A DNA stretch of 64,000 nt from Pseudobdellovibrionaceae bacterium (lineage in GTDB: Bacteria; Bdellovibrionota; Bdellovibrionia; Bdellovibrionales; UBA1609): contig JABJQG010000020.1 of NCBI GenBank assembly GCA_018663505.1, positions 1-64,000 of the forward strand, in the 5' to 3' direction. The notes beneath the pieces are model-generated. The model searched no databases, was not told where the DNA came from, and saw nothing but the letters and a program-made list of their open reading frames with translations. The number at the start of each line of letters is the position of its first letter. The first letter of the stretch is position 1. The translations under genes and the position numbers were made by a program. Positions 42,203-44,672 of this stretch are shown here, in pieces.

Positions 42203-42733
42203 CTAACATTTTGCTAACACATGTAGAGGAACATCTATTTTCTCACGTCCCTTTAAAGCTTCAATCTCTAAAAGTACATGTAGCCCTAAAATCTCGGCCC
42301 CAAGCTTTTTACACATATCACAAGTGGCTTTTGCAGTACCACCGGTGGCCAGTACATCATCTATAATAATAACCTTATCCCCAGGGGAAATGTCCTCTTT
42401 ATGAATTTCAAGAGTGTCAGTTCCATACTCTAAATCATAGGTGTGACTCAAGCGCTCTCGAGGCAATTTCCCAGGTTTCCTTACTAACACCAAACCCGCA
42501 TTTATATGTTGAGCAAGAGCCGCTCCCAATATAAAACCCCGAGCTTCAATGGCTACAATTTTTGAAACCTCTTCTGGTTTCTCCAATGATCGATAAAACT
42601 GCCGAGCCAAGGAAACAAAAGCTTCATGGTTTCCCAAAACAGGGGTGATGTCTTTAAATAAAATTCCAGGCTTAGGAAAATCAGGAACATCAACCATCAA
42701 CTCAATAATACTCTCTATAGACTTCAACCCCAT
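42203..42733 (-). CDS. apt: adenine phosphoribosyltransferase
   Basis: Salvages adenine to AMP with PRPP in the cytoplasm (176 aa, normal). The N-terminal FPKPGILFKDITP, the IEARGFILGAALA loop, the flexible loop RKPGKLPRE and the PRPP-binding motif VIIIDDVLATGGTA (about 125-138) are all intact. An AAGGAG site lies before the ATG, and a promoter candidate is seen further upstream. Transcribed away from the small lipoprotein gene. Confidence 0.96.
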   Translation of the reverse strand: MGLKSIESIIELMVDVPDFPKPGILFKDITPVLGNHEAFVSLARQFYRSLEKPEEVSKIVAIEARGFILGAALAQHINAGLVLVRKPGKLPRERLSHTYDLEYGTDTLEIHKEDISPGDKVIIIDDVLATGGTAKATCDMCKKLGAEILGLHVLLEIEALKGREKIDVPLHVLAKC

Positions 42734-42761
42734 CTCCTTTTAACGATTCTTAAACACAAGA

Positions 42762-42790
42762 TTTATACTGTTATTTACAACTCGGCGCAA
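42762..42790 (-). promoter_or_regulatory. candidate promoter of apt
   Basis: On the minus strand TTGCGC (42790-42785) and TATAAA (42767-42762) are separated by 17 bp, about 29 nt before the apt ATG. The -35 box is a poor match. Confidence 0.4.
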
Positions 42791-42818
42791 TACAAAATAT
42801 CTCATAAAACAATAACTA

Positions 42819-42846
42819 CTGACAGCTTAACTCTCTAATATAGAAT
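42819..42846 (+). promoter_or_regulatory. candidate promoter of the small lipoprotein gene
   Basis: CTGACA (42819-42824) and TAGAAT (42841-42846) are separated by 16 bp and lie 26 nt before the ATG. Moderate matches. Confidence 0.4.
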
Positions 42847-42872
42847 TTAAAAAAACAGCACGGAGCCTTCTT

Positions 42873-43280
42873 ATGACCAAACCCCTACTCATATTAATTC
42901 TGTTCACAATAGGTTGTTCTACAACAAAGTGTAAAACCGTAAAACACCAAAAAGAAATAGACGCTACACATGTGAATGCAGACAAACTAAAAAAGACGTT
43001 CAATGTAGATCAAAAGAAAAACAATGGAAAAGAAGAACATGTATTTATTTACAAATATGATGGAGCCTTACAGTGCGGCCTTGGTCATGCTGTTAAAGTA
43101 CAGGTCATGGAGCAAGAGCTCACTGGCATTACAGTGTATTCCAGAGAAAATAAACCCGATGGACTCATGCATGTTCAAGCCTGTGGCCAACCCACAGGTC
43201 GAGCCAATGTATACGAAGTCAGCAAAAGCAATGCCGAAAAAGCCAAATCAAGAGGCTTCCTACTCTGGAGATTTAATTAA
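42873..43280 (+). CDS. small predicted lipoprotein, unknown
   Basis: Lipoprotein of 135 aa with no family I recognise. The signal peptide LLILILFTIGC has a lipobox ending at Cys15. The mature part begins with a Lys-rich linker and then a compact region with three further cysteines (TKCK, LQCGLGHAV, QACGQPTG), with a plausible disulfide between the last two, and a final hydrophobic strand GFLLWRFN. A GGAG site precedes the ATG. Its stop codon (TAA, 43278-43280) lies within the outermost TTAA of the perfect inverted repeat that follows, so its mRNA would end in, or read into, a long hairpin. Confidence 0.62.
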   Translation: MTKPLLILILFTIGCSTTKCKTVKHQKEIDATHVNADKLKKTFNVDQKKNNGKEEHVFIYKYDGALQCGLGHAVKVQVMEQELTGITVYSRENKPDGLMHVQACGQPTGRANVYEVSKSNAEKAKSRGFLLWRFN

Positions 43281-43467
43281 GATCCTCTAATTTTATATGA
43301 ATTCCCTTGAAAGTTCAAATCAGTGAAACCTCTTTAAATAAGGCACAGCTCCTGCTTTGCTGGTATCACCCTTCTGGTGAGCGCTTCCAGCTTACCAGAG
43401 CCCTATTTAAAGAGGTTTCACTGATTTGAACTTTCAAGGGAATTCATATAAAATTAGAGGATCTTAA
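43277..43467. repeat. perfect 64-bp inverted repeat with 63-nt GC-rich loop
   Basis: Left arm 43277-43340 and right arm 43404-43467 are exact reverse complements over all 64 positions. The outermost four bases on each side are TTAA. The left one carries the stop of the small lipoprotein gene, and the right one carries the stop of lysA on the other strand. The arms are about 27% G+C, while the 63-nt spacer (43341-43403) is about 59% G+C. The spacer can fold on itself through CTGGTA/TACCAG (43360-43365 with 43393-43398) around TCACC/GGTGA (43366-43370 with 43376-43380). It could be a bidirectional terminator, or a small mobile element of MITE type with a TTAA target duplication. It contains no ORF worth calling. 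Confidence 0.9.
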
Positions 43468-44672
43468 CAACCACCCACAACAATCTCTCCAGGCAATCCA
43501 TGCATATTATAATTAGAACTCATAGAAAACCCATAAGCTCCAGCATCAAAAATTGCCATTAAATCACCTTGTTTTAATTTTTGTAAATTTCGACTATGCC
43601 CTAAAACATCAGAGGATTCACAAATTGGCCCCACAATGTCATAAAGCTCCATAGAAGAGCTTTCCGATTTAATGACTTTATCAATATTATGATGAGCCGA
43701 ATATAAACATGGCCGCATCAAATGATGCATCCCTGTGTCCAAAATAGCAAAGTTCTTATAGGGTGATTTCTTAATATATTGTATTTCAGTGAGCAGAACT
43801 CCACAGCGACCAGTAATCATACGCCCTGGTTCAGCAATAATTTGTATCTCTGGTCGGTCACTAAAAATTCCTTTAATCATTTCTCCGTACTTTTCAATAA
43901 CCTTAAAATCTACTTGCGAGTCAAAACTCTCATACTTAAAACCCAAACCACCACCCACATCAAATGTTTTCATAGGGTGTCCTTGAGAGCGAAAGTGATC
44001 AAACAAAGGTAAAGTTTTCTCCACAGCCTCTTTAAAGGAGGAAATATCATGAATCAAAGATCCAATATGCAAAGTTATGCCTTGAAGTGTGATGAAATCC
44101 TTAAACTCTTCTAAAATTTGATCTAATTCAAAGGTAAAGCTCTCATCCATCCCAAACTTGTTATCTCTGAAACCTGTACATATATAGGGGTGTGTTTCAG
44201 GACTCACGTCAGGGTTAAATCTGAAAGCCACCGTGGCGTTTTTATTCAAAGATTTAGCAATGGCACCTATGCGACTTAATTCCTGAGGAGACTCCACATT
44301 TATTTGATAAATTTGCTTCTCAATAGCGTAGGTCAATTCTACTTTTGTTTTGCCAACACCAGAAAAAATCACATCTTCTGGTGCAAAGCCACACTCAAGT
44401 GCCATGGCTATTTCACCTTGGGAAACAACATCAACACCTATTTCTAATCGAGAAAAGCTCTTAAGAATATCTTTATTACCATTAGCCTTAACTGCATAGT
44501 GGACCTTTGCCTGACTACCAAGATATTTTTTATACGCTAAAACCCGACGATTCATGTCGTCCAAATCATAAATGTAAATCGGGTGATCGTATGAAGGCAC
44601 AATATCCACAAGTGATTTAAATCCACTTTTGTTTTCTATGCCTAGTTGGTTATTTTTATATACAAATGCCAA
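43464..44672 (-). CDS. lysA: diaminopimelate decarboxylase
   Basis: PLP enzyme that turns meso-diaminopimelate into lysine, the last pathway step (402 aa). The PLP lysine is K62 in VHYAVKANGN. The HIGS stretch, GGGLGFKY (glycine loop binding the phosphate), EPGRM and the active-site GPICESSDVLG are all present. It follows lysC by 12 nt in the same leftward unit. Its stop codon lies in the right-hand TTAA of the long inverted repeat, so transcription from lysA runs into that hairpin. Confidence 0.95.
   Translation of the reverse strand: MAFVYKNNQLGIENKSGFKSLVDIVPSYDHPIYIYDLDDMNRRVLAYKKYLGSQAKVHYAVKANGNKDILKSFSRLEIGVDVVSQGEIAMALECGFAPEDVIFSGVGKTKVELTYAIEKQIYQINVESPQELSRIGAIAKSLNKNATVAFRFNPDVSPETHPYICTGFRDNKFGMDESFTFELDQILEEFKDFITLQGITLHIGSLIHDISSFKEAVEKTLPLFDHFRSQGHPMKTFDVGGGLGFKYESFDSQVDFKVIEKYGEMIKGIFSDRPEIQIIAEPGRMITGRCGVLLTEIQYIKKSPYKNFAILDTGMHHLMRPCLYSAHHNIDKVIKSESSSMELYDIVGPICESSDVLGHSRNLQKLKQGDLMAIFDAGAYGFSMSSNYNMHGLPGEIVVGGC

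Follow-up and report, generated by a model that had tools for sequence, protein, structure and literature searches.

A dispersed hairpin family of Bdellovibrionota with a conserved core and matching arms that differ from locus to locus

Why does a perfect inverted repeat lie between two convergent genes and carry the stop codons of both? The repeat is located in the window, the 64,000-nt stretch of DNA that was analysed as a whole, in a genome referred to below as G000 (Table 1). A preliminary description of the locus had reported a perfect 64-bp inverted repeat with TTAA ends and both stops, and this was confirmed exactly: the arms were complementary at 64/64 bases, and the two convergent neighbours each had their stop in one of the terminal TTAAs. 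The contrast in G+C content that it had pointed out also held, the 63-nt loop having 59% G+C compared to 27% in the arms. The predicted fold of the hairpin reached –126 kcal/mol compared to –38 kcal/mol (sd 3.9) for shuffled sequences (z = –22.6). An inverted repeat of such size was unique in the 64-kb window, where the runner-up had arms of 24 nt with 92% complementarity; this smaller repeat, at 1906–1954, has its arms one base apart. The lipoprotein-like ORF had no Pfam match. Truncation of lysA by the element appears unlikely, the lysA C-terminus being inside the family range. The hairpin is not a classical terminator, as it did not combine the G+C-rich stem and T run of an intrinsic terminator. 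No terminator-like (U-tailed) site was found in 42700–44200, and promoter-like sites near the hairpin occurred at chance level.

Table 1. Coordinates of the window hairpin and the two genes that flank it.
Feature	Position	Strand	Remark
Left inverted-repeat arm, 64 nt, TTAA at start, locus-specific	43277–43340	+	exact reverse complement of 43404–43467
Conserved core (loop), ~60 nt, predicted branched fold	43341–43403	+	covariance model match
Right inverted-repeat arm, 64 nt, TTAA at end	43404–43467	+	pairs with 43277–43340
Small lipoprotein-like ORF, 135 aa	42873–43280	+	TAA stop inside first arm
lysA, diaminopimelate decarboxylase	43464–44672	–	TAA stop in last TTAA, second arm

The conserved part of the window hairpin is its loop, not its arms. 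When the window's own genome was searched, the loop recurred at further places, each time within its own long inverted repeat, and no full-length match to the left arm was found elsewhere in the genome. Core positions were set by a covariance model, which replaced the too insensitive nhmmer; the match at G000:C49:43337–43408 had an E-value of 9.1e-23, with the window copy being among the model's own sequences. The predicted fold of the window core consists of P1 (43342–43344/43400–43402), P2 (43347–43349/43354–43356, loop TCCT), P3 (43360–43365/43393–43398) and P4 (43367–43370/43376–43379), and compensatory changes across copies support it. Among 14 copies aligned with MAFFT, two-sided changes occurred in 6/18 pairs, and the covariation score was 0.261 compared to 0.069 after shuffling. 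With 64 copies aligned to the model, an alignment biased towards structure, two-sided changes were seen in 16/18 pairs and the score was 0.655 compared to 0.179. The P2 loop kept TCC, which reads GGA on the other strand, in 62/64 copies. Searches of the window copy and ten further loci with the Rfam covariance models returned no family at gathering score.

The core was found to be dispersed both within G000 and among its relatives. R1, the covariance model of the core, gave 8 strong matches in G000, probably representing 7 loci because the start of contig C8 and the end of contig C57 (L004, L005) hold two ends of one copy. As these two contigs end in the same element, they are probably adjacent, with the assembly broken at the palindrome. 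At E-values that are rough for both models, R1 (E ≤ 0.01) gave 28 core matches in G018, a genome of the same family, and matches in 29/141 genomes of the order, and the broader covariance model R2 (E ≤ 1e-4) matched 48/369 genomes of the phylum. This distribution was patchy and included single-contig genomes. The G018 copies likewise consisted of the repeated core, each within its own long inverted repeat. The further copies in G000 and the many in relatives support the earlier suggestion that the element is dispersed and no ordinary terminator; the pattern named there as arguing against mobility, namely no further copies and one identical structure kept at a fixed position even in distant relatives, was not what we found. 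Viral contigs contained no exact match to the core pattern, phages gave no core match, and plasmids gave nothing beyond a weak 29-nt match, which was judged to be chance, as were single pattern matches in Pseudomonas and Clostridiales. Cores also occurred in close tandem on the same strand, ~100–126 nt apart (G128:C18 36–315; G043:C11 143541–143745). In G051 and G058, a ~1.18-kb IS-like repeat unit (L082 464–1639 and relatives) with a 295-aa transposase-like ORF, zinc-ribbon/DDE-like by eye, carried a shortened core close to one of its ends; G051 held about 12 copies of this unit, and the core had multiplied along with it.

Because the core model extends only a few bases beyond the core, the arms serve as a nearly independent check on the matches. 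An arm score of at least 8 was obtained at 63/78 core matches compared to 0/2340 control positions. Where found, arms were ~20 to 143 nt long with complementarity mostly of 90–99%, and whole elements measured ~100–360 nt. In G000, cores were 94% identical between loci and arms 96% complementary within a copy, and left arms compared between loci scored 8.1 against 6.8 for shuffled sequences, that is, at about the shuffled level. In sub-family 2 of G018 the arms were homologous, with 72% identity between copies and 95% complementarity within a copy. No motif common to the arm ends was found across copies. At L057 and L060 the inverted repeat continued 50 nt and 39 nt, respectively, beyond the element consensus, in each case into sequence unique to that locus; L064 also extends past the consensus, a weaker case since the contig end is reached. 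At L062 the extension was another dispersed palindromic repeat. This second repeat, ~130 nt long with ends GAGGCTGTCGCCAAACGGCC, occurs at more than 20 places in G018 (e.g. L280–L287), and L062 carries it at 1376–1408 and 1667–1699, with the core element in the middle of that copy. Watson–Crick pairs made up 3018 of the 3148 arm pairs. On the core strand, A·C mismatches (56) exceeded G·T mismatches (20), an excess confined to the 10 pairs adjoining the core; farther than 10 nt from the core the counts were 31 and 18 (p = 0.09), and G-U pairs were not clearly in excess on either strand. As the excess sits within 10 nt of the core, we rejected this strand bias as evidence for RNA.

In comparisons of orthologous sites between sister species, the two arms changed in concert. 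L132 (G048) and L134/L135 (G061, G063) share flanks and core, whereas several paired substitutions separate their arms, as does one 2-nt indel that is matched in both; in L086/L087, one block was exchanged in both arms. Between G071 and G073, the arms were partly or wholly different at L164/L208, L182/L165, L217/L184 and L186/L223, still complementary within each genome, and the flanking DNA at these sites was ~90% identical where tested. The arms of L214/L171 were identical, and those of L226/L199 carried three compensated changes. In G069 the element was absent at two sites, the flanks of which were too diverged; a clean empty site, which would show the second arm arising upon insertion, did not come to light. 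Since the arms keep matching while changing, copying between the two seems to take place. Changes of several bases or indels made jointly in both arms, the signature of a hairpin maintained by template switching, were observed here. The paired indels and block changes, together with the lack of clear G-U tolerance, favour DNA template switching, a known creator and maintainer of perfect stems (PMC8794818).

We believe that this hairpin is probably a dispersing DNA element in which fold-back/template-switch copying of a flank onto the opposite side generates the arms and preserves their perfect pairing. When the DNA is replicated or repaired, the core would form a DNA hairpin, and the strand would fold back on the core and copy one flank in inverted orientation. 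Such copying would create the second arm and hold the arms identical, and at times it may lengthen them into unique flanking DNA, stopping at coding sequence. Some enzyme would carry the core, alone or with one arm, to new sites. The existence of the family, the conservation of its fold and the concerted evolution of its locus-specific arms are shown by the data; that the core moves and that fold-back copying is the cause we infer. More tentatively, the elements might constitute a new class of mobile DNA in which a folded core spreads, alone or with one arm, turns into a palindrome by fold-back copying of the flank (an inverted target duplication), and then has its arms rewritten in concert. 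The hairpin family dispersed between Bdellovibrionota genes is apparently undescribed: the REP, MITE and template-switch literature, as far as our incomplete coverage reached, held no description of such elements.

Nearly every copy was intergenic, with a bias towards the 3' ends of genes, and by simple ORF calls the surrounding genes were convergent at 23 copies, tandem at 22 and divergent at 8. The 3' bias would suit a structured RNA family, in which the hairpin, transcribed from the genes beside it, would stabilise 3' ends, serve as an RNase III substrate, aid termination or bind protein, and selection on the RNA would keep core and arms paired. The compensatory core changes and the TCC (GGA) loop are consistent with this explanation as well, and selection on an RNA stem could also hold the arms paired. 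We consider it rather unlikely, however, as the window locus offers no terminator-like site and promoter-like sites only at chance level, Rfam has no match, the arms farther than 10 nt from the core show no clear tolerance of G-U, and blocks and indels were altered in both arms simultaneously. The element may also function as a hairpin in RNA form at the 3' ends of genes, and a folded RNA is possible whether or not RNase III processes it.

Another explanation of the locus-specific arms, that the core inserts into the centre of pre-existing native palindromes in the manner of group IIC introns at terminators, appears quite improbable. The L062 copy, centred in another dispersed palindromic repeat, agrees with it, but perfect palindromes of 45–140 nt that are unique to their locus and without a core were not seen, and the window's runner-up is far shorter at 24 nt per arm. 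Even less credit is due to two further readings: a classical MITE that duplicated a TTAA target, which the preliminary description had suggested from the TTAA ends of the window locus, and a REP-type element with a Y1 transposase as its mobiliser. The TTAA ends are not common to the other copies, which share neither ends nor arms, and the TTAA-MITE idea therefore fails; there is no common arm-end motif, the G000 arms are unshared, and a partner transposase did not turn up. Although common in the order (96/141 genomes), Y1 transposases were rejected as mobiliser: their distribution does not track the core, no core was present at 31 Y1 loci, and G018 and G046 have many core copies but no Y1 match. 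Reverse transcriptases (46/141 genomes of the order) were rejected likewise, since their distribution does not track the core either. No recurrent neighbouring gene suggesting a partner was found around the copies, so that the search of Y1 transposases, reverse transcriptases and neighbouring genes yielded no mobilising enzyme. If the core is mobile, this points to a further enzyme in Bdellovibrionota. At L258, L259 and L261, the Y1 transposase genes lie between their own ~30-nt inverted repeats, and these loci resemble TIRtrons (PMC3733652). An assembly fold-back artefact has practically no probability, since, although one own-genome copy is divided between the contig ends of C8 and C57, the presence of the element in single-contig genomes, and at orthologous positions in sister species, rules such an artefact out as a general explanation. 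Repeats of this type are themselves able to break assemblies, as probably happened at C8/C57.

Group IIC introns insert at terminator hairpins. They resemble the present family in that an element occupies the centre of a hairpin specific to its locus; the present core, in contrast, has neither intron RNA nor an ORF, and is not tracked by reverse transcriptase. REPs are 20–40 bp long, with a GTAG or CGTC tag and conserved stems (PMC3733652). REP/REPIN and RAYT/TIRYT-associated repeats are, like the present elements, short, dispersed, intergenic and palindromic, and some of them are dimers or sit within palindromes, as here (PMC3733652). The present family differs in conserving its centre, in having locus-specific arms of 25–140 nt and in lacking a link to Y1 loci. 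At ~100–360 nt and with no shared terminal motif, its elements depart from REPs/REPINs in size and terminal tag, and the 31 Y1 loci revealed no RAYT (Y1) association. Correia/NEMIS, ERIC, RUP and the Rickettsia RPE MITEs (PMC2229807) are likewise non-coding, shorter than ~300 bp, intergenic and able to form a long stem-loop. The copies of a MITE have their terminal inverted repeats and target duplications in common, whereas ends and arms of the present family vary by copy; shared terminal repeats were absent in G000 and partly present in G018 sub-family 2, and a constant target duplication was absent, TTAA being found at the window copy only. Quasipalindrome correction by template switching (PMC8794818) is alike in that perfect stems are made and repaired with paired changes of several bases. 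Descriptions of it concern mutation in RNA genes and at other loci, whereas here it would need to act repeatedly at one conserved dispersed core. In this family, arms are homogenised around a fixed core in many natural cases that are replicated across the phylogeny, so that the origin and upkeep of perfect stems, by templated copying or by one-by-one compensation, become directly testable. Known dispersed bacterial palindromes keep their stems or their ends; the present family keeps its centre, and its arms diverge yet match.
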